Positions 1 through 9,423 of a stretch of 9,423 nucleotides of DNA are shown here, one piece after another. The stretch covers positions 1 through 9,423 of the forward strand of contig JADZET010000025.1 of NCBI GenBank assembly GCA_020850375.1, in the 5' to 3' direction. The DNA is from Phycisphaeraceae bacterium (GTDB lineage Bacteria; Planctomycetota; Phycisphaerae; Phycisphaerales; Phycisphaeraceae). Within the stretch, counting starts at the first letter, position 1; the number at the start of each line of letters is the position of its first letter. The position numbers were made by a program, and so were the translations under genes. The notes beneath the pieces were generated by a model. It saw only the letters and a program-made list of their open reading frames with translations. It was not told the origin of the DNA and ran no database searches.

Positions 1-844
1 GCCCAACTACTTCGGCCCCCAGCGCTTCGGCTACCGCCTGGTCAACCACGAGCTCGGCCGCCTCCTGATCCTCCGCCGCTACCAGGAGCTCCTCGACCTC
101 CTCCTCGGCGACCCGCGCCCCACCGACATCCCCCCCGGCCAGGAAGCACGCCAGGCCTACGAACGCGGCGACTTCGGCCGCGCCCTGCACCTCTGGCCCA
201 CCGCGCTCCCCTTCGACCGCCAGGCCCTCGAGGCTCTCGTCCACGGCCGATCACCCGAGCAGGCCGTCCGCGCCATCGACCCCCGCCAGCGACTCTTCCT
301 CGTCTCCGCCTTCCAGAGCGCCGTCTTCAACCTCGTCCTGCGCCGCCGCGTCCAGGCCGGCGCCTTCGATCGCCTCCTCCCCGGCGACCTGGCCATGAAG
401 CACGACTCCCGCGGCGTCTTCCCCGTCGATCAACCCACCGCCGATCTAGAGAACACCCCCGGAACTTCCGGGGGCGGCCGCATCCCTAATCTGCAGATCA
501 GCCCCACCGGCCCCATGTGGGCCGCCGACATGATCCAGCCCGCCGGCGAAGTCCTCGCCGCCGAACAAGCCGCCATGTCCGAGCTCGGCCTGACCCCCGA
601 GGATTGGTCGACCCTCGACGTCACCAGCCGCAGCGCCATGGTCCAAGGCGTCGAGGGCGAGCGTCGTCCCCTCCGCGTCCCCCTGGGCAATCCCCGCCTC
701 ACCGCCGACCACGACGAGCACGGCCCATGCCTGCGCCTCGAGGTCGACCTCCCCCGCGGCTCCTTCGCCACGGTCCTGCTCGACGAGATCATCAAGTCCT
801 CCCCCGACCCCTCCGACCCGCAGCTCAGCGATCACCAGGAATAA
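1..844 (+). CDS. truD: tRNA pseudouridine(13) synthase TruD, C-terminal part (5' end outside window)
   Basis: TruD isomerises uridine 13 of certain tRNAs to pseudouridine in the cytoplasm. The reading phase starts at base 2 and runs open for 280 codons to TAA at 842-844; the N-terminus with the catalytic Asp lies upstream of the window. Visible family hallmarks are PNYFGPQRFG at the very start, NHELGR shortly after, the helix RLFLVSAFQSAVFN (about fragment residues 97-110), GDLAMKHDS, ISPTGPMW, GERRPLRVPL and LPRGSFATVLLDEI near the end. Between PVDQP and ISPTGPMW there is a short Gly/Pro-rich insertion (about bases 440-495) that holds a perfect GC palindrome at 456-474. The gene converges on the ATP-grasp gene with only 7 bases between stop codons and no visible terminator. 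Identification is from conserved motifs and is firm; the start is not visible. Confidence 0.93.
   Translation, partial: PNYFGPQRFGYRLVNHELGRLLILRRYQELLDLLLGDPRPTDIPPGQEARQAYERGDFGRALHLWPTALPFDRQALEALVHGRSPEQAVRAIDPRQRLFLVSAFQSAVFNLVLRRRVQAGAFDRLLPGDLAMKHDSRGVFPVDQPTADLENTPGTSGGGRIPNLQISPTGPMWAADMIQPAGEVLAAEQAAMSELGLTPEDWSTLDVTSRSAMVQGVEGERRPLRVPLGNPRLTADHDEHGPCLRLEVDLPRGSFATVLLDEIIKSSPDPSDPQLSDHQE
456..474. repeat. Short GC palindrome inside truD (copy 1)
   Basis: CCCCCGGAA-C-TTCCGGGGG: 9-bp perfectly complementary arms around one central base. It is read in frame as TPGTSGG within an insertion of TruD. It shares the CCCCCGG/CCGGGGG arms with two copies in truA (8214-8232 and 8801-8819). Confidence 0.75.
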
Positions 845-851
845 CCCGCCC

Positions 852-1847
852 TCACCCCACAGCCACCGCCGCCTCCACCTTCCCCCGCGTGTCGAACCTC
901 ACCGGCCCCTTCCGCCACCGCAGCGGCGCCGCTCCCTCCACGATCGCCACCGCCACCGACGTCTCGCACAACGCCTTGAGCCCGATGTACGACATCGTCA
1001 CCCGCGGGTTGATCTCCAGCACCACGTCCTGCCCCGCCGCCTCGCCCTCCTCCGCCAGCACCAGGTCCACGTCCACGAACCCCCGCAGCCCCGGCACGCG
1101 CTCCAGCGCCCGCTCCGCCAGCGCAAACGCCCGCCCCGCCAACGTCTCATCCACCGGCACACTCCCCCCCCGGTAGTGCAGCCGCAGCGACCCCTCGACC
1201 ACCTGCCGGCACACCTGTAGCCGTCGCGGCACCCCCCCGTGCAAAATGAACGAAGCGCTGACCGCCGCCCCCGCCGCATGGTCCTGCATGATCCAGTCCC
1301 GCCCGAACGGCACCTGCGACAGATCCCCCTTGGTCCGGCACAGATAGACCTCCTCGCACCCCGCCCCCCGGCGCCGCTTGACGATCACCGGCTTGGCCAG
1401 CTCCGCCTCCACGTTCAGCCGCCGCGTCAGCGGCGTCGGAACCCCCCCGCGCATCATCGCGTCGGCGAACCCCAGCTTGTCCGCGCACAACGCCACCGCG
1501 TCCGGCCGCGAACCCAACCGCCTCGCACCCGCCGCCGTCAGCTTCGCCGACCACGACTCCAGGATCCCCTCCGTCTCCGGCGCGATCACCAGCGCGTAGT
1601 CCGCCTCCGCCGCCAGCTGGTCGATCACCGCCTCGATGCTCGACCGCCCATCCGCCCGCAGCACCTGTGCTCCCTCGAGCCGCAGCGAGATCCGGTGGTC
1701 CAGCGTCGTGAGCACCTGCACCCCCGCCCGCAGAAAATCATCCACCACCGCCGACAGCACCGCCGAGCTTCGCTCGACCGTCGCCGAGTCCAACGGCTGG
1801 CGGATCATCCCGCCCCCGCACACGTGCTCAAAGACAAACACACGCAT
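852..1847 (-). CDS. ATP-grasp ligase, COG1821 / MfnD-like (tyramine-glutamate ligase family)
   Basis: A 331-residue ATP-grasp enzyme; such enzymes join a carboxylate, activated as acyl phosphate, to an amine. The N-terminus MRVFVFEHVCGGG resembles the short start of COG1821/MfnD proteins. Then come ADKLGFADAMMRGGVPTP (residues 122-139, the usual helix and strand entering the ATP-grasp fold), KPVIVKRRRGAGCEEV (152-167, nucleotide-binding Lys157 and the Arg/Gly-rich loop), WIMQDHAAGAAVSASF (185-200, hinge), GFVDVDLVL (256-264) and VLEINPRVTMSYIGL (276-290), where Glu278 and Asn280 fit the Mg2+ ligands. ATG at 1847 was preferred over the longer TTG/GTG-type starts because the conserved N-terminus begins there. 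In methanogens MfnD makes gamma-glutamyltyramine for methanofuran, and planctomycetes can carry C1-transfer genes; no other C1 gene is visible here, so the substrate is unassigned. The gene stands alone on its strand, divergent from the exported SIS-like gene. Confidence 0.82.
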   Translation of the reverse strand: MRVFVFEHVCGGGMIRQPLDSATVERSSAVLSAVVDDFLRAGVQVLTTLDHRISLRLEGAQVLRADGRSSIEAVIDQLAAEADYALVIAPETEGILESWSAKLTAAGARRLGSRPDAVALCADKLGFADAMMRGGVPTPLTRRLNVEAELAKPVIVKRRRGAGCEEVYLCRTKGDLSQVPFGRDWIMQDHAAGAAVSASFILHGGVPRRLQVCRQVVEGSLRLHYRGGSVPVDETLAGRAFALAERALERVPGLRGFVDVDLVLAEEGEAAGQDVVLEINPRVTMSYIGLKALCETSVAVAIVEGAAPLRWRKGPVRFDTRGKVEAAVAVG

Positions 1848-1871
1848 CCCTACCGCCTTGTCTTCCGTGCC

Positions 1872-1905
1872 CCCGACCTTCCGGGCCGGGGGGCCGGGGG
1901 TCGGG
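1872..1905 (-). promoter_or_regulatory. Hairpin in the 5' leader of the ATP-grasp gene
   Basis: CCCGACC at 1872-1878 is complementary to GGTCGGG at 1899-1905, enclosing a 20-base G/C-rich loop with several GGCC/CCGG blocks. If transcription starts just below the TACAAT box at 1908-1913, the hairpin would form the very 5' end of the mRNA, about 25 bases ahead of the ATG. Its role is unknown; it could stabilise the 5' end or be a simple GC-rich fold. Confidence 0.4.
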
Positions 1906-1907
1906 CG

Positions 1908-1936
1908 ATTGTACGTCCCCCCCCAGCCTGTCGCAC
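1908..1936 (-). promoter_or_regulatory. Putative sigma70-type promoter of the ATP-grasp gene
   Basis: On the minus strand there is TACAAT (1913 down to 1908), a 5/6 match to the -10 consensus. Upstream is GCGACA (1934 down to 1929, 4/6 match to TTGACA, 15-base spacing) or GTGCGA (1936 down to 1931, 17-base spacing, 3/6). The -35 region overlaps that of the divergent plus-strand promoter. Confidence 0.45.
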
Positions 1937-1958
1937 GATCCACCATTCATGCGATAAT
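1930..1958 (+). promoter_or_regulatory. Putative extended -10 promoter of the exported SIS-like gene
   Basis: TGCGATAAT at 1950-1958 is an extended -10 element (TGn plus GATAAT, 5/6 match). The hexamer GTCGCA at 1930-1935 lies 17 bases upstream, only a 3/6 match to the -35 consensus, as is common for extended -10 promoters. This predicts a start near 1965 and a leader of about 45 bases containing the ribosome-binding site at 1995-2001. Confidence 0.45.
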
Positions 1959-1994
1959 CAACGTGTTCACCGCCCCCGCGAGACACCCCGGCCC

Positions 1995-2001
1995 AGAGGA
2001 G
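1995..2001 (+). promoter_or_regulatory. Shine-Dalgarno site fixing the start at 2010
   Basis: AGAGGAG lies 8 bases before the ATG at 2010. It is the clearest Shine-Dalgarno sequence in the window. It rules out the much longer in-frame opening that begins upstream, opposite the ATP-grasp gene. Confidence 0.7.
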
Positions 2002-2009
2002 CGTTCATC

Positions 2010-3245
2010 ATGTCCCACCGTCTGTCCCCGCGGATGCTCACCTCTCTGACCCTGCTGATCGGCCTGCTGACCGCGGCTCAATCCGCCCCCGCCGACCGAA
2101 TCCCCCCCGACGAAGCACCCGCCGCCCGCGCCGCTCTCGACGCCGCCGATCTCCTGCTCGATCGTCTCCGCCAGCAGATGCCCACCCTCATCGAGGCCTC
2201 CGAACTCGCCGCCGAGAAGGTCATCGCCGGCGGAAAAGTCTGCGTCCCCGGCGATCCCGCCCTCGCCCTCGAGCTCTCCCGCCGCCCCGGCGCCCTGGCC
2301 CTGATGTCACCCGACGAGCCCGTCAAGGGCGACGTCCTGCTCTTCGCCGCCGACCCCACCGCCGATTCCCTCGACGAAGCCCGCCGGCACACCGACCACG
2401 GCGTCACCGTCATCCTCCTCGCCTCCCGCCGACAGCTCGACGCCGCCGACCTCCTCGCCCGCGCCGACGCCGTCGCCTCCGCCATGATCGACACCGCCGC
2501 CGGCGACGATCTCGCCCCGCTCGCCCCCGCCGCCCACCTCATCACCGCCTGGTGCTTCCAGGCCGAGCTCGCCTCCGCCCTCACCCGCCGGGGCCGCATC
2601 CCTCTCGCCTGGTCCGCCCCCGCCATTCCCCACCCCACGACGCGGGAATCGCTCCTGATCGAAGACCCCAACGTCACGCCCATCCCCGCCGGCCAATGGG
2701 CCGAGCAGTACCTCCACGCCATGCACTCCGTCCTGCACGAGATCGGCGGCGGCTCCTGGGACAACCTCGCCCGCGCCGCCCGCAAGGCCACCCGCGCCCT
2801 CCGCGCCCACCGCAACGTCTACCTCGCCTCCGTCATCCCTTACGCCGCGTCGCGTCTCTCCCCGGACGACTCTCACCCCGCCTGGCTCCGCTACCTCGAC
2901 CTGCGCGACCCCGGCCGCGACCAGCCCGCCCGCGGCGACTTCGTCATCGCCCTCGGCCGCGACGAACGTCCCGGCACCGAGGACTGGGGCCCCAACGTCT
3001 CCCTCCTCCGCCGCGCCACCGCCGGCGTCGCCTGGGTCTGCATCGACATCGGCTCCCCCCGCGAACGGGCCAAGAAACGCGACGTCCGCATCAACCCCGG
3101 CTACCCCGCCGACGACGCCGTGATCAAACTCCCCTCGCCCGGCGCCCGCATCGCCCCCGTTTCCACCCCCGCCGCAGAGATCGTCCTCGCCGCCATCCTC
3201 GCCCAGGTCCAGGCCGACCTCGACAAAAACCCCATCCGCCCCTGA
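2010..3245 (+). CDS. Exported protein with two degenerate SIS-like halves, function unknown
   Basis: A 411-residue protein. Residues 1-28 form a Sec signal peptide: basic start, hydrophobic LTSLTLLIGLLTAA, and APA before Asp29 as a signal peptidase I site. The mature part reads as two similar alpha/beta halves. Half one has a long helix (39-73), GGKVCVPGDPALALELSRR (74-92), KGDVLLFAADPTADS (106-120), HGVTVILLASRR (130-141) and a C-terminal helical stretch (169-195). Half two has a helix (233-266), RNVYLASVIPYAASRL (268-283), ARGDFVIALGRDERPG (307-322), GVAWVCIDIGSP (339-350) and a closing helix (385-403). The pattern resembles sugar-isomerase (SIS) domains, but the Ser/Thr phosphosugar-binding signature is absent, so catalysis is doubtful. 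The SIS assignment is inference from pattern only; signal peptide and start (Shine-Dalgarno at 1995) are seen directly. The methyltransferase gene follows 28 bases downstream, probably co-transcribed. Confidence 0.7.
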   Translation: MSHRLSPRMLTSLTLLIGLLTAAQSAPADRIPPDEAPAARAALDAADLLLDRLRQQMPTLIEASELAAEKVIAGGKVCVPGDPALALELSRRPGALALMSPDEPVKGDVLLFAADPTADSLDEARRHTDHGVTVILLASRRQLDAADLLARADAVASAMIDTAAGDDLAPLAPAAHLITAWCFQAELASALTRRGRIPLAWSAPAIPHPTTRESLLIEDPNVTPIPAGQWAEQYLHAMHSVLHEIGGGSWDNLARAARKATRALRAHRNVYLASVIPYAASRLSPDDSHPAWLRYLDLRDPGRDQPARGDFVIALGRDERPGTEDWGPNVSLLRRATAGVAWVCIDIGSPRERAKKRDVRINPGYPADDAVIKLPSPGARIAPVSTPAAEIVLAAILAQVQADLDKNPIRP

Positions 3246-3273
3246 CTCCCGCCAAGCCGTCTGACGCCCCCTG

Positions 3274-4023
3274 ATGTCCATCCTCTACCACCAACTCGCC
3301 CACCTCTGGCCGCTGCTCAGCCCACCCGCCGACTACCACGCCGAGGCCCGCCGGATCACCACGATCCTGCGCCGCCATCTCGCCCGTCCCCCGCGAGGCC
3401 AACGCCCCACGCTCCTGGACCTCGGCACCGGCGGCGGACACCTCCTCTCCCACCTCAAGCACCAGTTCACCGCCACCGCCGTCGACCTCTCCCCGGCCAT
3501 GCTCGACAACGCCCGCCGCCTCAACCCCGACGTCGAGCACCACGAGGGCGACATGCGTTCGATCCGCCTCGATCGCACCTTCGACGTTGTCCTGCTCCAC
3601 GACGCCATCGACTACATGACCACCCCCGACGACGTCCACCTCGCCCTGACCACCGCCCGTCACCACCTCCGCCCCGGCGGCGTCACCCTCTTCAGCCCCG
3701 CCTACGTCGCCGAGACCTTCCTCGACCACGAGGCCGAGCACGACCACCACCACGTCCCCGGCCCCCCCGAGATCGATCTGACCTACTTCACCTACGTCCA
3801 CGACCCCGACCCCGCCGACACCCGCGTCGAGATGGTCCTGCTCCTGCTGATCCGTCAGGACGGCCAACTGACCATCCACCAGGACCGCCAGCAGCTAGGC
3901 CTCTTCCCCACCGACCACTGGCTCGCCATGCTCCGCCTCGCCGACCTCACCCCCTCCTCCGAGCCCGCCTCCCGCAGCCGCACCGCCAGCCACGGCGCCC
4001 CCTGGTTCGTCGGCCGCGGATAA
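3274..4023 (+). CDS. Class I SAM-dependent methyltransferase
   Basis: A 249-residue cytoplasmic enzyme expected to transfer a methyl group from S-adenosylmethionine to an unknown acceptor. Motif I, TLLDLGTGGGHLL (residues 46-58), is the SAM-binding Gly-rich loop. AVDLSPAML (69-77) supplies the acidic residue Asp71 for the ribose. EGDMRSI (91-97), FDVVLLHDAIDYM (103-115) and HLRPGGVTLFSP (131-142) are the following core strands. The N-terminal helix with ADYHAEARRITTIL and the phrase DAIDYM are typical of small-molecule or amine methyltransferases of the methyltransferase-25-like group. A His/Asp-rich stretch (HEAEHDHHH, 152-160) lies before the C-terminal beta region. The ATG at 3274 has no Shine-Dalgarno site. 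It lies 28 bases after the exported SIS-like gene and is likely in the same transcript. Substrate cannot be read from the sequence. Confidence 0.85.
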   Translation: MSILYHQLAHLWPLLSPPADYHAEARRITTILRRHLARPPRGQRPTLLDLGTGGGHLLSHLKHQFTATAVDLSPAMLDNARRLNPDVEHHEGDMRSIRLDRTFDVVLLHDAIDYMTTPDDVHLALTTARHHLRPGGVTLFSPAYVAETFLDHEAEHDHHHVPGPPEIDLTYFTYVHDPDPADTRVEMVLLLLIRQDGQLTIHQDRQQLGLFPTDHWLAMLRLADLTPSSEPASRSRTASHGAPWFVGRG

Positions 4024-4030
4024 CCGATCC

Positions 4031-4165
4031 CCCGTGAATCTGCGCAAGCTATTCGGATATCACCGGACGGACATTGCCATTCCAGCACCCTCGATGCCCG
4101 GACAGGTCAAACCCCCCATCTCCTGAGCCGATAACACCCTCGCCAGCGACATGCACCCGTGAATC
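4031..4165 (+). repeat. Two 10-bp direct repeats in the gap before the PilZ gene
   Basis: CCCGTGAATC occurs at 4031-4040 and again at 4156-4165, each followed by AAGC (after five extra bases in the first copy, directly in the second). Both lie in the non-coding gap between the methyltransferase and the PilZ gene. They could be operator half-sites or a chance repeat. The rest of this 182-base gap holds a weak -10-like GATAAC at 4130-4135 and the hairpin at 4169-4192. Confidence 0.35.
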
Positions 4166-4168
4166 AAG

Positions 4169-4192
4169 CCCCTGTCTCGCCGGGAACAGGGG
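4169..4192 (+). promoter_or_regulatory. Leader hairpin overlapping the probable ribosome-binding site of the PilZ gene
   Basis: CCCCTGT (4169-4175) pairs with ACAGGGG (4186-4192) around a 10-base loop. The 3' arm runs into a G-tract (AGGGGGGG, about 4188-4196) that is the only Shine-Dalgarno-like sequence before the ATG at 4206. Folding would hide the ribosome-binding site. No known riboswitch consensus is complete here. Confidence 0.4.
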
Positions 4193-4205
4193 GGGGACCA
4201 CTTCA

Positions 4206-4814
4206 ATGACCACCGCAGCGCGTGCCCTGCGCCCGATCAGCGTCCAGGACCTGAGTCTTGGCCAGCACCTGCACGGCTCGATCTACGCCGCCGACGGCCG
4301 CGTCCTCCTGCCCTCCGGCACCGTCATCGACCTCCCCGAACTCGCCGCCCTGCGCCGCCACGACCTCTACGTCCGCCCCGACTGGTTCAAGAAGGCCGCC
4401 AAGCAGCCTCCCACCCATGAGCCCGATGCCACACCCATCATCCAAGCCCTGACCCAGAAGTACGGCCCACGGGACCCCCAAAAATCCACCGACCGCCGAG
4501 CCCACCCCCGTTACCCCTGGAACGTGACCATCCACGTCGACCTCGAGGAATCCACCCCCAACGGACCAGCCCACCGTCGCATCGAGGTCACCACCCTGAA
4601 CATCTCCCTCGGCGGCGTCGCCTTCTCCCACCGCCAGTTCATCCACCTCGGCACCAAGGTCTCGATGGTCTTCGACACCCTCCCCGGCCAGCCCGCCTAC
4701 AAGGGCCTCGTCCGCTCCTGCGTCCCGATCGGCGGCATGCAGCACCGCATCGGCGTCCAGTTCACCACCACCGTCAAGCAAAAGAAAAAGCCCGATCCCT
4801 CCACCCCCGCCTGA
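4206..4814 (+). CDS. PilZ-domain protein (probable cyclic-di-GMP receptor) with an HD-GYP-type N-terminal region
   Basis: A 202-residue cytoplasmic protein. The C-terminal half (about 95-190) is a PilZ domain. It has the RxxxR motif as Arg98-AHP-Arg102 and the second motif [D/N]xSxxG as Asn132-Ile-Ser134-Leu-Gly-Gly137, the residues that grip cyclic-di-GMP, so binding is likely. The N-terminal part, PISVQDLSLGQHLHGSIYAADGRVLL continuing to YVRPDW (residues 10-60), resembles the small domain found ahead of HD-GYP phosphodiesterases (phrases like 'dL.pG..l...i...dG.lLlp.G'). A charged linker (about 61-95) joins them, and the tail is Lys/Pro-rich. ATG 4206 was chosen because conserved sequence begins there and a G-rich ribosome-binding site precedes it; the longer opening from 4074 is Pro/Ser-rich and not convincing. 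The output pathway is unknown; motility, polysaccharide or stalk control are usual for the family. Confidence 0.85.
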   Translation: MTTAARALRPISVQDLSLGQHLHGSIYAADGRVLLPSGTVIDLPELAALRRHDLYVRPDWFKKAAKQPPTHEPDATPIIQALTQKYGPRDPQKSTDRRAHPRYPWNVTIHVDLEESTPNGPAHRRIEVTTLNISLGGVAFSHRQFIHLGTKVSMVFDTLPGQPAYKGLVRSCVPIGGMQHRIGVQFTTTVKQKKKPDPSTPA

Positions 4815-4833
4815 CCTGCCCCCTCCGACTTCT

Positions 4834-4862
4834 TTGTCACCCCCGCCCCCTTTCCGTATCAT
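4834..4862 (+). promoter_or_regulatory. Strong sigma70-type promoter of glyS, probably giving a leaderless mRNA
   Basis: TTGTCA at 4834-4839 (5/6 of TTGACA) and TATCAT at 4857-4862 (5/6 of TATAAT) are separated by exactly 17 bases. Only 8 bases lie between the -10 box and the ATG at 4871, so transcription should begin at or within about two bases of the start codon. No Shine-Dalgarno sequence is present, in agreement. Confidence 0.7.
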
Positions 4863-4870
4863 CTGCCCCC

Positions 4871-6547
4871 ATGTCACAAAACCCCGCCCCCTCCACCGTC
4901 AAATCGATGGACGACATCGTCGCTCTCTGCCGTCGCCGCGGCTTCATCTGGCAGTCCTCCGAAATCTACGGCGGCATCAACGGCTTCTGGGACTACGGTC
5001 CTCTCGGCGCCGAGCTCAAACGCAACCTCAAGGACGCCTGGTGGCACGACATCGTCCGCTGCCCCGCCACGGGCCCCCACGGCCAGACCATCGACATGGT
5101 CGGCGTCGACTGCACCATCATCATGAACCCCAAAGTCTGGGTCGCCTCCGGCCACGTCGGTGCCTTCGCCGATCCCGCCAGGAAATGCCCCGGCTGCGGG
5201 CACTTCGTCCGAGCCGACCAGTTGTGGGATGTCCTGGGACAGAACAGCGAATGGTTCGCCTCGCTGCTCCAAGAGTTCACGCCCGTCACCGGCCACATCG
5301 ATTCGCCCGGGTTGATCAAATGGGCCAAGGGCAAGGGCAAGAAACTCGCGCCAAACCTCGCCCTGGTCCGTCAGCCCGAGGTGGTTCTGAGTTTTCTCGC
5401 CACGCGCGTCAACGGCCAACCCGATGCCCCGCCCGACCTGCAGGAAATCGTGCGCTACCTCGCCACCGCCCAACCCCACGCCACCGGCTTGCAGGAGCCC
5501 TGTCCCCTTTGCGGTGACGCCTTGGGTGAATCCAAGCCCTTCACGCAGATGTTCGAGTCCTACATCGGCCTCGAAAAAAACGACGAAAGCCGCGTCTACC
5601 TCCGCCCCGAGACCGCCCAGGGCATCTTCGCCAACTACCGCAACGTGCTGGACACCTCCCGCGTCAAGATCCCCTTCGGCATCGCCCAGATCGGCAAAGC
5701 CTTCCGCAATGAGGTCACCCCGCGCAACTTCACCTTCCGCTCCCGTGAGTTCGAGCAGATGGAGATCGAGTTCTTCATCCACCCCGACACCGCCCACGAG
5801 TGGTACAAGTTCTGGCGCGACGCCCGTTACGCCTGGTGGCAGTCCATCGGCCTGGCCGGCGAGAACCTCCAACTCCGCGAGCACGACAAGGACGAACTCG
5901 CCCACTACGCCAAGGAGGGCGCCGGCACCAGCGACATCGAGTACCGCTTCCCCTTCACCGCCCCCGGCTTCGGCGAGCTCGAGGGCGTCGCCCATCGCAC
6001 CGACTACGACCTCCGCCAGCACGCCCAGCACTCGGGCATGGGCGACAAGCTCAAATACTTCGACCAGGAGCTCCAGGTCCAGCTCCAGAATCAGGGCGTC
6101 CCCAAGGAAGAGATCAACCAGCGCAGCCGCTACTTCCCCCACGTGATCGAGCCCTCCGCCGGCGCCGACCGCGGCACGCTGGCGCTCCTCTGCGAGGCCT
6201 ACACCCCCGACCCCTCGCGCCCCAGCGGCGTCTACATGAAGTTCCAGCCGCGCATCGCCCCGATCAAGGCCGGCATCTTCCCCCTCGTCAACAAGGACGG
6301 CATGCCCGAGGTCGCCGACAAGCTCTACCAGGACCTCCGCACCCAATACGCCGTCCAGTTCGACGAAAAACAATCCATCGGCAAGCGCTACGCCCGCATG
6401 GACGAGGCCGGCACCCCCTTCTGCTTCACCATCGACGGCGACACCCTCAAGGACCAGACCGTCACAGTCCGCCACCGCGATTCCCAGCAGCAGGAGCGCC
6501 TCAACATCGACAACGTCCCCGCCTTCCTCGCCGAAAAAATCGCCTAA
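4871..6547 (+). CDS. glyS: Glycyl-tRNA synthetase, single-chain (alpha2) type
   Basis: Charges tRNA-Gly with glycine using ATP; class II synthetase in the cytoplasm. The 558-residue chain is the homodimeric type, not the separate alpha and beta subunits of E. coli. It starts with the characteristic MDDIVALCRRRGFIWQSSE (13-31) and GGINGFWDYGPLGAELK (34-50). Motif 2 is FRNEVTPRNFTFRSREFEQM (278-297) and motif 3 lies around GADRGTLALLCEAY (431-444). ETAQGIFANY (247-256) is the family signature. Two CxxC pairs, Cys106/Cys109 and Cys211/Cys214, probably hold zinc. The C-terminal anticodon-binding domain starts near RIAPIKAGIFPL (461-472). At 558 residues it is longer than many bacterial homologues (roughly 460-510), the excess lying between the CxxC pairs (about 125-205), where codon use is also less C-ending. 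A consensus promoter ends 8 bases before the ATG and an intrinsic terminator follows, so it is probably its own transcription unit. Confidence 0.96.
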   Translation: MSQNPAPSTVKSMDDIVALCRRRGFIWQSSEIYGGINGFWDYGPLGAELKRNLKDAWWHDIVRCPATGPHGQTIDMVGVDCTIIMNPKVWVASGHVGAFADPARKCPGCGHFVRADQLWDVLGQNSEWFASLLQEFTPVTGHIDSPGLIKWAKGKGKKLAPNLALVRQPEVVLSFLATRVNGQPDAPPDLQEIVRYLATAQPHATGLQEPCPLCGDALGESKPFTQMFESYIGLEKNDESRVYLRPETAQGIFANYRNVLDTSRVKIPFGIAQIGKAFRNEVTPRNFTFRSREFEQMEIEFFIHPDTAHEWYKFWRDARYAWWQSIGLAGENLQLREHDKDELAHYAKEGAGTSDIEYRFPFTAPGFGELEGVAHRTDYDLRQHAQHSGMGDKLKYFDQELQVQLQNQGVPKEEINQRSRYFPHVIEPSAGADRGTLALLCEAYTPDPSRPSGVYMKFQPRIAPIKAGIFPLVNKDGMPEVADKLYQDLRTQYAVQFDEKQSIGKRYARMDEAGTPFCFTIDGDTLKDQTVTVRHRDSQQQERLNIDNVPAFLAEKIA

Positions 6548-6580
6548 CCCGCGACATCACCCTTGCAGCGCCCACCTAAG

Positions 6581-6615
6581 CCCAGGCACGGCGTGCCTGG
6601 GTTTCTTATTGTTTT
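6581..6615 (+). terminator. Intrinsic terminator of glyS
   Basis: CCCAGGCAC (6581-6589) and GTGCCTGGG (6593-6601) form a perfect 9-bp stem with a GGC loop, extendable by three pairs through the flanking AAG and TTT. It is followed directly by a T-rich tract (6602-6615). The tract overlaps the last codons and stop of the convergent HAD gene. There is no T-run on the other side, so it acts mainly for glyS. Confidence 0.9.
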
Positions 6616-7319
6616 CCCATCCCACTCCCCTCCACCAACCCCACAATCCCCCCCGCCTCATGCACGATCGCCTGCGCCCCATGCTCGCGCAGCTCGCTCT
6701 CCTCTCGAAACCCCCACGTCACCCCCACCGTAAACATCCCCGCCCCCCGTCCCGTCCGCATGTCCGCCGCCGTGTCCCCCACGTACATCCACCTCCCCGG
6801 CTCGATCCCCAGCTCCCGCGCGATCCCCAGCGCCCCCGCCGGGTCAGGCTTAAGTGGGCTTCCGGGGGTGATCCCCATCACCGCCGCGAACCGCACCCCC
6901 GCAAACAATCCCTCCAGGCACTCCACCACCGCCTCGTGCGGCTTATTGCTCAGCACCGCCATCACGATCCCGCGCCGCCCCAGCTCCCCGAGCATCTCCA
7001 GCACCCCCGGGTAGGGCTTGGTCAGGCTCATCCCATGCCGCGCATAATGCGCCTGATAGATCGGCCGCCCCTCCTCGATCCGATGCCTCTGCCCCTCCGG
7101 CAGCGTGTTACGGATCAGCGCCTCGAGTCCCTGCCCCGCCAGGTACCGGTACTCATCCACCGCCCGCCCCGCAAATCCAAGCTCCGCCAGCATGTGATTC
7201 GCCGCCGCCGCGATCGGCCCGAGCGTGTCCGCCAGCGTCCCATCCAGATCAAACATCACCGCCGCGAACCGAGCCTTCATGGCCGCAGGGGACAGGGAAG
7301 CAGTAGGGGGGTTAAGCAT
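6606..7319 (-). CDS. HAD-family phosphatase, phosphoglycolate-phosphatase-like
   Basis: A HAD hydrolase of 237 residues from ATG 7319 (224 from ATG 7280). Motif I FDLDGTLADT carries nucleophile Asp24 and acid/base Asp26. A helical cap follows (about 33-100). Motif II is Ser124 in VLSNKP, motif III Lys157 in LKPDP, and motif IV GDTAADM with Asp182 and Asp186. The C-terminal GVTWGFREESELREHGA is typical of Gph/PpaX-like enzymes, which remove phosphate from 2-phosphoglycolate or pyrophosphate; which substrate applies cannot be told. Conserved sequence starts near residue 14 (MKARFAAVMFDLDGT), so 7280 is a plausible start, but a promoter-like TATAAC lies only 9 bases before ATG 7319, favouring a leaderless start there. 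Neither ATG has a Shine-Dalgarno site. The last codons lie inside the T-tract of the convergent glyS terminator. Confidence 0.87.
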   Translation of the reverse strand: MLNPPTASLSPAAMKARFAAVMFDLDGTLADTLGPIAAAANHMLAELGFAGRAVDEYRYLAGQGLEALIRNTLPEGQRHRIEEGRPIYQAHYARHGMSLTKPYPGVLEMLGELGRRGIVMAVLSNKPHEAVVECLEGLFAGVRFAAVMGITPGSPLKPDPAGALGIARELGIEPGRWMYVGDTAADMRTGRGAGMFTVGVTWGFREESELREHGAQAIVHEAGGIVGLVEGSGMGKQ

Positions 7320-7328
7320 GGGCGGGCA

Positions 7329-7357
7329 GTTATAGACCAAATGCTAAATCCTGGCCA
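7329..7357 (-). promoter_or_regulatory. Putative promoter of the HAD phosphatase gene
   Basis: On the minus strand TGGCCA (7357 down to 7352, 4/6 of the -35 consensus) is followed after 17 bases by TATAAC (7334 down to 7329, 5/6 of the -10 consensus). The -10 box ends 9 bases before the ATG at 7319, the same geometry as the glyS promoter, suggesting a leaderless or nearly leaderless transcript. Confidence 0.45.
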
Positions 7358-7431
7358 CCCCGCTGACTTTGCAGAATTTAACGCGTTGCTTAAGCTGTGT
7401 TCGTTGCTCCCTGCTCGGGGGGGCAACCCCG

Positions 7432-7465
7432 GGTGCCTGGATGGGGGTCGGACGCGCCAGGCGTC
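7432..7465 (+). other. Hairpin in the leader of the flavin-reductase-like gene
   Basis: GCCTGG (7435-7440) pairs with CCAGGC (7457-7462), extendable by one GC and two GU pairs to about nine pairs, with a 16-base loop. A second small G/C hairpin lies at 7416-7431. The 192-base gap 7320-7511 otherwise shows only weak plus-strand promoter candidates (for example TTGCAG at 7369 with TAAGCT at 7391). It does not fit the FMN riboswitch pattern. Confidence 0.3.
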
Positions 7466-7511
7466 GCCCGCGGGCTCCAGTTCTTTCTCCTGACGACCGA
7501 GGCGGTGCGCT

Positions 7512-8018
7512 GTGGAATCAACTCCTCCGGTTCTGTCGGAACAGGCTCTCGCCGAGGTCTCCAAGGCCCTCGGACGCATCCCCTCGGGACTCTTCGTCCT
7601 GACCGCCCGCCACGAGGATCGCCGCATGGGCATCCTCGCCTCCCTCGTCCAGCAGGTCTGCTTCAATCCCCCCATGGTCTGCGTCGCCATCGCCAAGGGA
7701 CGCCCCATCATGCCGCTCATCAGCGAGTCCCGCCGCTTCGCCGTCTGCCAGATGGCCAAGGGCGACAAGGTCCTCATGCGCAAGTTCGCCGCCCCCAGCA
7801 TCCAGGGCGACGACCCCTTCCTCGGCTTCGAGCTCCTGCCCCACACCGCGCTCAGCCTCCCCGTCCTCGCCGGCGCCATGGCCTACCTCGAGTGCGAGGT
7901 CACCTGTCACATCGACGTTGACGGCGACCATGACCTCTTCGTCGGCGCCGTCCGTAACGGCGGCGCCAAGGCCGGCGACCCCTACGTCCACCTCCGCGAA
8001 GACGGCCTCAAGTACTAG
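7512..8018 (+). CDS. Flavin reductase-like protein (FMN-binding split-barrel fold)
   Basis: A 168-residue cytoplasmic protein of the flavin reductase-like (DIM6/NTAB, PF01613-type) family, which binds FMN and uses NAD(P)H to reduce flavin or a partner. The N-terminal core ALGRIPSGLFVLTAR (19-33), the stretch MGILASLVQQVCFNPPMVCVAI (39-60), then KGRPIMPLISESRRFAVCQM (62-81) follow the family order: GxxPSGvxVlT, asxvqQvsfxPPxv.va, and the 's..f.vn.l' strand with Cys79 here. AYLECEVTCHIDVDGDHDLFVGAV (124-147) is the usual closing beta hairpin. The start is GTG at 7512, supported by GAGG at 7499-7502. truA begins five bases after the TAG, so the two are almost certainly co-transcribed and may be translationally coupled. 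The physiological electron acceptor is unknown. Confidence 0.87.
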   Translation: MESTPPVLSEQALAEVSKALGRIPSGLFVLTARHEDRRMGILASLVQQVCFNPPMVCVAIAKGRPIMPLISESRRFAVCQMAKGDKVLMRKFAAPSIQGDDPFLGFELLPHTALSLPVLAGAMAYLECEVTCHIDVDGDHDLFVGAVRNGGAKAGDPYVHLREDGLKY

Positions 8019-8023
8019 CTCCC

Positions 8024-9106
8024 GTGACCGACTCCCCGTTGAAATCCGACGCTCTCGATCACCCCCTCCCGCGCCGCCGGTACAAGCTCCTCATCGCCTA
8101 CGACGGCAGCAACTTCCGAGGCTGGCAAAAACAATCCCCCGCCCCCGGAATCGCCCCCGGAATCGCCCCCTCCCCCGACCCCGCGATCGTCGCCGATGAT
8201 CCGAACGTTTCAGCCCCCGGCTCCCCCGGGGGGGACGCCCCTTCTCTACCCATCCCCGCCCCACGCACCGTCGCCGCCGTCCTCGAAGACGCCATCGCCC
8301 GCACCGTCGGCCAGCCCATCAGGCTCGTCGGCGCCTCCCGCACCGACGCCGGTGTCCACGCCCTCGGACAGGTCGCCCACTTCGACGCCGCCACCCGCAT
8401 CCCCACCGAACGCCTCGCCCAGGCCATCAACGCCCGCCTCCCCCGCGACCTCGAAGTCCTCTCGGCGTGCGCCGTCCCCGACACCTTCGACGCCATCACC
8501 GACGCCACGTCTAAACAGTACCGCTACCGCATCTTCAACGCCCCCCAGAAGCCTCTGGCCGTCCGCCACCTCGTCTACCACTGCTGGCGCCCCCTCGACC
8601 TCGACGCCATGGCCGACGCCGCCCGCCGCCTCGTCGGCACCCACGACTTCGCAGGCTTCGCCGCCGCCGACCACGGCCGCGTCACCACCGTCCGCACCAT
8701 CTTCGACTGCCACGTCGAATCCCACCCCCTCACGCAAGTCGCCGCCCAAGCCTTCTTCCCCCCACCCCCGCAAGCAACCCCGCCAGCCCACGCCCTCCAG
8801 CCCCCGGCTCCGCCGGGGGGTACCTCCCCCTCCGATCTCCCCGCCGCCCCCGCCAGCCCCGAAGGCCACCGCTTCCCCCCCCGCGAGGTCCACGTCGTCG
8901 TCACCGGCTCGGGCTTCCTCTACAACATGGTCCGCATCATCGCCGGCACCCTCGTCGAGGTCGGCTGGGGCCGTCTCAAGCCCGAAGTCGTCACCGAAGT
9001 CCTTGCCACCCAGAACCGCCGCCTCGCCGGCAGCACCCTCTCCCCCAACGGCCTGTGCCTCGAGTGGATCAAGCACCGCGAGCTCAACCCACCACCTCAG
9101 CAGTAG
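8024..9106 (+). CDS. truA: tRNA pseudouridine(38-40) synthase TruA with two low-complexity insertions
   Basis: TruA converts uridines 38-40 in the anticodon arm of tRNAs to pseudouridine. Family motifs are LLIAYDGSNFRGWQKQ (22-37), LVGASRTDAGVHALGQVAHF (101-120) with catalytic Asp108, YRYRIFN (166-172), HDFAGFAA (207-214) and GSGFLYNMVRIIAGTLVEVG (295-314). At 360 residues it is about 90-110 longer than usual TruA. The excess is two Pro/Ala/Gly-rich insertions: residues about 38-80, between GWQKQ and RTVAAVLE, and about 235-285, before REVHVVVTGSGF. In E. coli TruA both positions are short turns, so the core fold should be intact. Each insertion contains a CCCCCGG/CCGGGGG palindrome, and the first also has a 12-bp tandem repeat. 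The GTG start at 8024 is five bases after the flavin reductase stop, without a clear Shine-Dalgarno site; the exact start is less certain. Confidence 0.94.
   Translation: MTDSPLKSDALDHPLPRRRYKLLIAYDGSNFRGWQKQSPAPGIAPGIAPSPDPAIVADDPNVSAPGSPGGDAPSLPIPAPRTVAAVLEDAIARTVGQPIRLVGASRTDAGVHALGQVAHFDAATRIPTERLAQAINARLPRDLEVLSACAVPDTFDAITDATSKQYRYRIFNAPQKPLAVRHLVYHCWRPLDLDAMADAARRLVGTHDFAGFAAADHGRVTTVRTIFDCHVESHPLTQVAAQAFFPPPPQATPPAHALQPPAPPGGTSPSDLPAAPASPEGHRFPPREVHVVVTGSGFLYNMVRIIAGTLVEVGWGRLKPEVVTEVLATQNRRLAGSTLSPNGLCLEWIKHRELNPPPQQ
8141..8170 (+). repeat. 12-bp tandem repeat inside truA
   Basis: GCCCCCGGAATC at 8141-8152 is repeated exactly at 8153-8164 and followed by a partial GCCCCC. It encodes APGIAPGIAP in the first TruA insertion. 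The core CCCCCGGAA equals the left arm of the truD palindrome at 456-464. Confidence 0.75.
8214..8232. repeat. Short GC palindrome inside truA (copy 2)
   Basis: CCCCCGG-CTCCC-CCGGGGG: 7-bp arms and a 5-base loop. It is read in frame as part of APGSPGG (residues 64-70) in the first TruA insertion, in the same phase as the truD copy. Confidence 0.7.
8801..8819. repeat. Short GC palindrome inside truA (copy 3)
   Basis: CCCCCGG-CTCCG-CCGGGGG: 7-bp arms, extendable to 8 bp through the C and G flanking TCC. It is read as PPAPPGG (residues 260-266) in the second TruA insertion, shifted by one base in phase from copies 1 and 2. It differs from copy 2 only at one loop base. Confidence 0.72.
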
Positions 9107-9138
9107 ACCCCTCGCCTCGCCCCCCATACCCTATTCCC

Positions 9139-9423
9139 ATGTCCAACATCCTCGTCATCGGCCCTCATCCAGACGACCAGGAACTCGGCATGGGCGGCTC
9201 CATCGCCCGCCTTGCCGCGCAGGGTCACAACCTCCTGCTCCTGGACATCACCAACGGCGAGCCCACCCCCCCCGGCTCCCCCGAGATCCGCCGGCGCGAA
9301 TCCACCGCCGCCGCCGAGATCCTCGGCGTCACCCGCCAACTCCTCGGCCTCAAAAACCGCGAAGTCCAGCACACCCTCGAAGCCCGCCACGCCGTCGCCG
9401 CCGTCATCCGCCGCTTCCGCGCC
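9139..9423 (+). CDS. PIG-L/LmbE-family deacetylase (BshB-like), N-terminal part, runs off window
   Basis: The first 95 residues of a zinc-dependent N-acetylglucosaminyl deacetylase family protein. VIGPHPDDQELGMGGSIARL (6-25) contains the PHPDDxE metal-binding motif: His10 and Asp13 as zinc ligands, with Asp12 as the likely catalytic base. DITNGEPTPPGSPEIRRRES (36-55) is the second signature, which matches the BshB branch (NGEPTPxGSPExR). NREVQHTLEARHAVAAVIRR (73-92) also fits. The third metal ligand lies downstream of the window. BshB enzymes deacetylate GlcNAc-malate in bacillithiol synthesis, but close relatives act on other GlcNAc conjugates, so the substrate is not assigned. ATG 9139 is 32 bases after the truA stop, consistent with the same operon; no Shine-Dalgarno site is visible. 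Confidence 0.88.
   Translation, partial: MSNILVIGPHPDDQELGMGGSIARLAAQGHNLLLLDITNGEPTPPGSPEIRRRESTAAAEILGVTRQLLGLKNREVQHTLEARHAVAAVIRRFRA

Follow-up and report, generated by a model that had tools for sequence, protein, structure and literature searches.

Palindromes within truA of a Phycisphaeraceae bacterium are very probably REP elements, distinct from a look-alike in truD, probably a 12-bp word insertion

Why do three similar GC-rich palindromes interrupt two pseudouridine synthase genes on a single planctomycete contig? The stretch analyzed here (the window) comprises 9,423 nucleotides (nt), positions 1 to 9,423 on the forward strand of contig JADZET010000025.1 from a Phycisphaeraceae bacterium. 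In it, the pattern CCCCCGGN{1,7}CCGGGGG, or CCCCCGG-N(1-7)-CCGGGGG, occurs 3 times, at 456-474, 8214-8232, and 8801-8819, compared with 0 occurrences in 200 dinucleotide shuffles. Copy 1 lies in truD (2..844, plus strand; partial, the 5′ end being cut by the contig end; Pfam TruD, 160.5 bits), and copies 2 and 3 lie in truA (8024..9106, plus strand; Pfam PseudoU_synth_1, 122.6 bits), all within open frames. The initial annotation had proposed one family of three mini-elements, resembling repetitive extragenic palindromic (REP) sequences and perhaps spreading through the loops of RNA-modification or other housekeeping genes. We found that copies 2 and 3 are REP elements and that copy 1 is a separate repeat, built on a different 9-mer. 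The complete reading, in which the truA palindromes are REPs, probably copied by a REP-associated tyrosine transposase (RAYT), and the truD palindrome is a separate insertion of a 12-bp word, is one that we hold with high confidence.

The placement of the palindromes in coding frames and variable loops, as originally described, held up. The TruA loop containing copy 2 (loop 1) is 43 amino acids (aa) long, against a median of 8 in the 110 of 120 sequences caught by our text pattern; that containing copy 3 (loop 2) is 65 aa long, where the 81 of 120 sequences caught have a median of 17. The TruD spacer after the EN motif measures 7 aa, compared with 3 aa in 63 of 121 sequences. These lengths come from crude text patterns, with sequences that were not caught being dropped; for the TruD spacer, 34 of 121 were not caught, and some others were caught at the wrong places. 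Equal or longer loops of other sequence occur in P0004 and P0005 (TruA loop 1), P0003 (loop 2), and P0150 (TruD). Arithmetic on the sequence likewise bore out the use of two reading phases, copies 1 and 2 beginning at codon position 2 and copy 3 at codon position 1.

The relatives of the window, in which the initial annotation had suggested looking for CCCCCGG-N-CCGGGGG, did contain this pattern. It is self-complementary, giving equal counts on either strand, and matched 152 times in G020, the nearest genome compared, itself from the Phycisphaeraceae, where the reversed control matched 0 times; 41 of 51 genomes of the family contained at least one match. Alignment of 44 oriented copies from G020 yielded the consensus TTCAG-CCCCCGGC-TCN-GCCGGGGG-GTAC, describing a 28-nt unit with a YAG foot, a CCCCCGGC-NNN-GCCGGGGG hairpin (an 8-bp GC stem and a 3-nt loop), and a weaker GTAC tail. 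The columns of the TCAG foot are conserved in 42 to 44 of these 44 copies, and those of the tail in 33 to 43. When up to 3 mismatches were allowed, the 28-mer TTCAG-hairpin-GTAC was found 149 times in G020, 17 times in G022, and 1 to 6 times in each of ten more genomes, with 0 control matches throughout. The family thus has the size (20-40 bp) and the high copy number of known short palindromic repeats, as well as a conserved, unpaired 5′ foot tetranucleotide, which is TCAG in G020 and TTAG in G010.

Both truA palindromes fit this unit. Copy 2 (8209..8236, plus strand) consists of the foot TTCAG, the hairpin at 8214-8232, and GGAC, and is read as SAPGSPGGD in loop 1; copy 3 (8796..8823, plus strand) consists of the foot TCCAG, the hairpin at 8801-8819, and GTAC, and is read as QPPAPPGGT in loop 2. 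Their foot tetranucleotides are TCAG and CCAG, respectively. On a profile built from 74 G020 copies, with a maximum of 53.2 bits, they scored 39.8 and 47.9 bits, and the best of 20 shuffled windows reached 4.0. For copy 1 the scores were −16.5 (own strand) and −13.4 (opposite strand), which rules out the single family of three palindromes initially annotated. The remainder of that proposal, a planctomycete REP-like mini-element kept as DNA and carried in frame in loops in more than one frame, stands for the two truA copies.

The genomic context of these elements was examined in a sample of G020 of 636,385 bases in 36 loci, chosen around listed copies and transposases, so that its figures are proportions and not genome densities. 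Genes in this sample, and in one from G019 discussed below, were called with a codon-usage script of our own rather than a standard program, by which 77.9% of the G020 sample is coding. A count of coding against intergenic copies, as had been proposed, placed 39 of 74 footed copies between genes, 34 in genes (23 sense, 11 antisense), and 1 at an edge. This distribution bears directly on whether there is an element at all. Both palindromes sit in loops of varying length rich in proline, alanine, and glycine, the window is GC-rich, and the loops contain CCCCCG runs, as would be expected if the palindromes were only low-complexity coding sequence, that is, Pro/Gly/Ala linkers written in GC-rich codons. 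Such linkers, however, would account neither for the absence of the pattern from the 200 shuffles and of its reverse from G020, nor for antisense copies within genes, nor for the conservation of unpaired flanks in a 28-nt consensus. Since intergenic copies share these flanks, the explanation is refuted for copies 2 and 3, and overall we consider it scarcely credible.

Within genes, the 34 G020 copies use 3 of the 5 open frames, read as QPPAxPGGT, SAPGSAGGY, and YPPAEPGAE, and the two arginine-rich frames are absent among them. This absence suggests a filter on the encoded peptide, to which the gene caller may contribute. Ten of the called host genes were tested against Pfam, and these encode GatB, an SNF2 helicase, a UvrD-like helicase, SBP_bac_5, an ABC permease, OEP, HlyD, a nitrogenase-type oxidoreductase, ScpA, and one protein without a family. 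In two of these hosts, the SNF2 helicase and the ABC permease, the REP falls within the span of a domain match. A homologue spanning the site was available for 4 of the 34 intragenic copies, all at 26-35% identity, and showed a gap at the copy in 3 of the 4. With 39 of 74 copies intergenic and 9 of 10 hosts of other known kinds, the suggested preference for RNA-modification genes has to be given up: pseudouridine synthases are not special as hosts of REPs.

The hairpins could also be intrinsic terminators, or RNA-stability hairpins, spread by selection. They fold as DNA with −9.3 to −11.6 kcal/mol, and some intergenic copies lie at most 150 nt after a gene. Against such a role, no T-run follows the stem, the 44 aligned copies continuing with GTAC and then mixed bases; copies occur where neighboring genes diverge (as for 4 of the 45 hairpins of a first sample) and inside genes on both strands; and they cluster around a transposase gene, as described below. 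A terminator or stability function as the reason for their spread is therefore very unlikely.

Beyond single units, head-to-tail pairs are common in G020. Some of these are 39-41 bp apart (L192:10486-12622, L137:14995-15706, L139:12545-15631), as if from local duplication. Inverted dimers were found with feet outward in G010 (L220, L221, L222) and G018 (L229), and with feet inward in G018 (L230), G022 (L234), G032 (L241), G035 (L242), and G034 (L243). Dimers were not seen in the window.

What could have copied these elements? A search of the family with Pfam Y1_Tnp (PF01797) returned six genes in G020, four of them beside other repeat families; none of the six has a truA-type hairpin within 1 kb, the nearest being 1,015 bases away. 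In G010, inverted hairpin dimers stand on both sides of a Y1 gene; their feet read TTAG, as did those of all 12 hairpins examined there (of 16 counted). The protein encoded by this gene matched in 30 of 51 genomes at E ≤0.001. Six close matches share 40-48% identity with it, and the one in G020 had been missed by PF01797. That gene, at C17:15121-15573, is flanked by 5 hairpin copies, 3 upstream and 2 downstream, none more than 114 nt away.

The same arrangement recurs across these relatives. A scan of the flanks for hairpins with a 3-nt loop and a stem of 7-10 bp, the only loop length covered, found 22 such hairpins, with at least one within 150 nt of each of the 7 RAYTs (G010 included). The stem is CCCCCGGC beside 5 of the 7, in G020 and four relatives, and a sister stem beside the other 2. 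A YAG foot is present on 19 of the 22 hairpins as printed, and on the other 3 if one base is shifted from stem to foot. In the pairs of G010 the feet point outward, in those of G032, G034, and G035 inward. All 7 proteins share a WHxH motif and an invariant tyrosine, which by analogy would be the catalytic residue. Pfam Y1_Tnp matched two of these RAYTs at 25.6 and 25.0 bits (cut-off 23), and the best NCBIfam match for the four tested was the REP-associated tyrosine transposase. A plasmid collection searched with the G020 RAYT gave no match. Footed hairpins, their position flanking the RAYT gene, and the WHxH and tyrosine motifs together make up the anatomy of a REP/RAYT system. In the mechanism that we propose, the RAYT, as a Y1 (HUH) tyrosine transposase, would recognize the hairpin and its foot, and REPs would probably be copied as single-stranded DNA; copies arriving in conserved genes would survive only if they kept the frame and landed in a flexible loop.

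Other pairs of this kind were also noticed. Four more repeat families, GGGTGCCACACAGCA, ACGAGCCGCGCGCGTCAGCAAGCGGT, GTTTAGCGGGCGATCGC, and CCCCGCATGGAAATGCGGGGC, lie beside four other Y1 genes of G020 (L183, L180, L181, L185, respectively), so that this genome seems to hold at least 5 REP/RAYT pairs. In G040 (L200:1950-2078), two ATAG-CCCCCGGCATGCCGGGGG hairpins in inverted orientation precede the matched Y1 stretch by 3 and 114 nt, apparently inside a 238-aa transposase frame, like the RAYTs with internal REPs described in PMC6006769.

REPs within genes are a known kind of element, to which those in truA belong. PMC3733652 describes GTAG- and CGTC-tagged repeats in many phyla, including Planctomycetes, with REPs also inside genes, the hosts including truA of Stenotrophomonas maltophilia and, in several species, truB; finding REPs in a pseudouridine synthase gene is therefore not new in kind. 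REPs inserted in frame within RAYT genes are described in PMC6006769. With the GTAG-tagged REP/REPIN-RAYT systems (REPIN: REP doublet forming hairpin), in which the transposase is an IS200/IS605-like TnpA-REP, the Phycisphaeraceae elements share a short GC hairpin, an unpaired foot, a high copy number, inverted dimers, a mostly intergenic location with some copies in frame in genes, and repeats that flank a transposase gene. They differ in having a TCAG or TTAG foot instead of GTAG, and in RAYTs remote from the NCBIfam model (at most 30.6 of 80 bits), whose WHxH and Y[IV]xxH motifs match no subclass signature in the passages of PMC6006769 consulted. Because of this foot, copies 2 and 3 were not filed in the GTAG superfamily; the substitution is a small foot variation. 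The class 3 planctomycete TnpA-Y1 proteins of the same source are likewise Y1 transposases beside high-copy hairpins, but those structures carry a CnGA foot on the 5′ side, whereas here the foot is TCAG or TTAG and CTGA occurs only as the complement on the 3′ side, and the truA elements were not placed in this class.

CGTC-tagged repeats have a CGTC foot, an 8-9-bp stem, and a 4-5-nt loop according to PMC3733652; the 8-bp stem of the truA REPs falls within this range, while their foot and their 3-nt loop do not. Two of the Rickettsia palindromic elements (RPEs), RPE-4 and RPE-6, are CGTC-tagged repeats without transposase gene association in that source, and RPE-1 is longer. The parallel with RPEs that had been drawn at first was apt as far as in-frame insertion of palindromes into housekeeping genes goes. 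A REP/RAYT system fits better, with its footed hairpin and adjoining transposase, and RPEs were set apart by their published descriptions.

When were the truA copies acquired? The nearest named relatives of the window TruA come from two Phycisphaeraceae metagenome-assembled genomes, P0002 (80% identity) and P0003 (61%), and in the proposed comparison of orthologues, carried out at the protein level, the window has two REPs, P0002 one, and P0003 none. At the site of copy 2, P0002 has SAPGSAGGY, which is precisely what the REP consensus encodes in that frame, while the window reads SAPGSPGGD; copy 2 is therefore shared, and the window version is the mutated one. It would thus be the older insertion, common to P0002 and altered since in the window lineage. 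Copy 3 is absent from both relatives. Among the best 119 TruA homologues, the copy 2 peptide occurs in P0002 only and the copy 3 peptide in none, and the best 120 TruD homologues contain neither peptide. By this distribution, copy 3 is probably a later gain of the window lineage. In G020, truA has the same neighborhood as in the window, after genes for a haloacid dehalogenase (HAD)-family protein and a flavin reductase and before a PIG-L gene; the interval from the flavin reductase gene to truA is approximately 1.7 kb longer in G020.

The palindrome in truD has a different makeup. Copy 1 (456..474, plus strand) reads CCCCCGGAA-C-TTCCGGGGG, with the 9-mer CCCCCGGAA present twice in inverted orientation, and lacks the REP foot. 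Aligning TruD with its orthologue, as had also been suggested, showed that the insertion is absent from P0121, whose protein is 95% identical: the window has LENTPGTSGGGRIPN where P0121 has LENAPEGRIPN, a difference of four extra window codons, or 12 bp net. The inserted piece is probably the 12-mer ACTTCCGGGGGC at 464..475 (plus strand; exact borders inferred), the reverse complement of GCCCCCGGAAGT, and excising it leaves NTPGGR beside NAPEGR in P0121. As a mechanism we propose the insertion of a 12-bp word, over-represented in the family, beside a pre-existing CCCCCGGA.

Could copy 1 nevertheless be a degenerate REP of the truA family? It has the same CCCCCGG...CCGGGGG arms, and 7 of the 44 aligned G020 copies have their loop enlarged by a further CCGGGGG block, which in 6 of the 7 reads TTCCGGGGG. 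A net insertion of 12 bp is, however, too short for a 28-nt unit, the foot is missing, both profile scores are negative, and the half-site CCCCCGGAA is by itself a far commoner word. We rejected copy 1 as a REP on these grounds, and its descent from one is highly improbable. The variants with an extra block (L135:12672, L135:12839, L136:10122, L138:4424, L138:4474, L140:223, and L146:11274) look as if the 9-mer were nested in a REP.

A second alternative is template switching at a quasi-palindrome within truD, unrelated to the dispersed 9-mer. Mutations of this type yield perfect inverted repeats, and copy 1 is a perfect inverted repeat around a 1-nt center. Moreover, no close inverted CCCCCGGAA pair (spacing 0-4 or 0-6) was found in the G020 sample, which weighs against tying copy 1 to the 9-mer. 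On the other side, the inserted 12-mer is exactly a dispersed word in reverse, with ACTTCCGGGGGCGG occurring 41 times over both strands of the G020 sample, and TSGG stretches encoded in the same way fall in homologue gaps of other G020 genes. In addition, CCCCCGGAAGTTCCGGGGG is present in G016 and G019. Template switching is accordingly the less likely origin, though one to be kept in mind.

Several observations weigh against the reading of truA REPs copied by a RAYT and a separate word in truD. The canonical GTAG foot is missing, and 39 of the 51 family genomes (all but 12) lack a match to the 28-mer. Copy 2 folds only moderately better than its shuffles, 22 of 200 of which fold equally well. 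The NCBIfam scores of the four RAYTs (30.6, 24.5, 24.6, and 16.2 bits) are far below the equivalog cut-off of 80. The arrangement of genes and repeats makes a RAYT the probable mover of these repeats; RAYT genes and copy numbers alike were determined in relatives, and the window genome itself would be expected to hold a RAYT too. The empty sites in P0002 and P0121 are known from protein sequence. Finally, the loop with copy 3 is a net 14 aa longer than in P0002, more than one 28-nt unit would add, and loop length varies, too much for proteins to decide between gain and loss, which makes loss in P0002 a possible alternative to gain in the window lineage.

The 9-mer CCCCCGGAA on which copy 1 is built occurs 5 times in the window (0.16 expected under the third-order Markov model used for all 9-mers), at 456, 466, 6860, 8142, and 8154, and 4 of these 5 copies are in the extended TruD and TruA loops. 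Two of them form direct copies with a 12-bp step (8142..8162, plus strand) in TruA loop 1, upstream of REP copy 2, and at this site P0002 reads PGSAPGSAPAPGS, which by our own reading can be encoded by CCCCCGGAA. The fifth (6860..6868, minus strand) is ordinary coding sequence (TPGSP) in the HAD-family gene. In relatives, CCCCCGGAA is the most over-represented 9-mer, both in the G020 sample (421 observed, 16.9 expected) and in a G019 sample of 149,320 bases (66 observed, 0.9 expected). The latter was chosen around listed copies of the tandem form of the 9-mer, and since both samples were selected around listed copies, these ratios lean high; counts over whole genomes are unaffected.

The rarity of forms with one mismatch shows how sharply the word is defined. 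CCCCCGGAAG occurs 51 times in perfect form in G019, where no single change within the first nine positions gives more than 4 copies, and 301 times in G020, where none gives more than 47. Over whole genomes, the extended form CCCCCGGAAGTG was counted 280 times in G020, 272 in G019, 78 in G022, 77 in G053, and 70 in G030, and is present in 44 of the 51 family genomes, in several at control level only (0-3 per strand). An order-wide draw of 400 genomes, family included, gave matches in 154, with a control of up to 6 in one genome; the highest counts outside the family were 49 (G088), 23 (G336), 20 (G229), and 19 (G084).

The two best-sampled genomes carry the word in different ways. Of the 66 copies in the G019 sample, 52 are coding (as is 81% of the sample), and these, 27 sense and 25 antisense, cover all phases: CCCCCGGAA ignores gene, strand, and frame. 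Of the homologue pairs spanning a copy, 15 of 19 are without a gap, so the word probably arose there by substitution. Intergenic copies number 244 of 421 in the G020 sample, the most frequent spacings are 12 and 18, and 23 of 31 pairs have a gap; here the word probably spread as insertions and arrays. These gap calls come partly from low-identity linker alignments, with several rows from one gene.

An origin by substitution and an indifference to gene, strand, and frame are how DNA-uptake words behave. Like the DNA uptake sequences of Neisseria and the uptake signal sequences of Haemophilus, CCCCCGGAA is the top over-represented word and occurs on both strands, inside and outside of genes; in G020 and the window it is also found as insertions and in tandem arrays, which those words are not known to form. 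By this analogy, CCCCCGGAA(GTG) may be a recognition word of the whole Phycisphaeraceae, spread by substitution in some genomes (G019), while in the lineage to which G020 and the window belong it would have run to arrays and insertions of 12 bp and would decorate loops of conserved proteins such as TruD and TruA. We offer this only tentatively and regard it as doubtful. ComEC, present in 44 of 51 genomes, is uninformative on uptake, because it also occurs where the 12-mer is absent (G021, G037, G043, and G049). Searches of a literature collection for DNA uptake sequences in planctomycetes, or as overrepresented words of a phylum, found no paper, and among the matches listed for the letters CCCCCGGAAG, the titles concern other organisms or topics.

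One further repeat in the window, a 13-bp inverted repeat with 92% complementarity (CCCAGGCACG/CGTGCCTGGG, 6578-6604), directly follows the GlyRS gene and is likely a terminator; G020 has stems resembling it (CCAGGCATGG/ATGCCTGGG).

These results add to the Phycisphaeraceae a REP/RAYT system whose foot is not GTAG, and show that look-alike GC-rich palindromes in such genomes can be different things. Housekeeping proteins of these bacteria carry REPs in frame, and presence or absence in near relatives orders the copies in time. The 9-mer is a more novel lead than the truA REPs: if it is a true recognition word, we know of no earlier uptake-type signature from planctomycetes.

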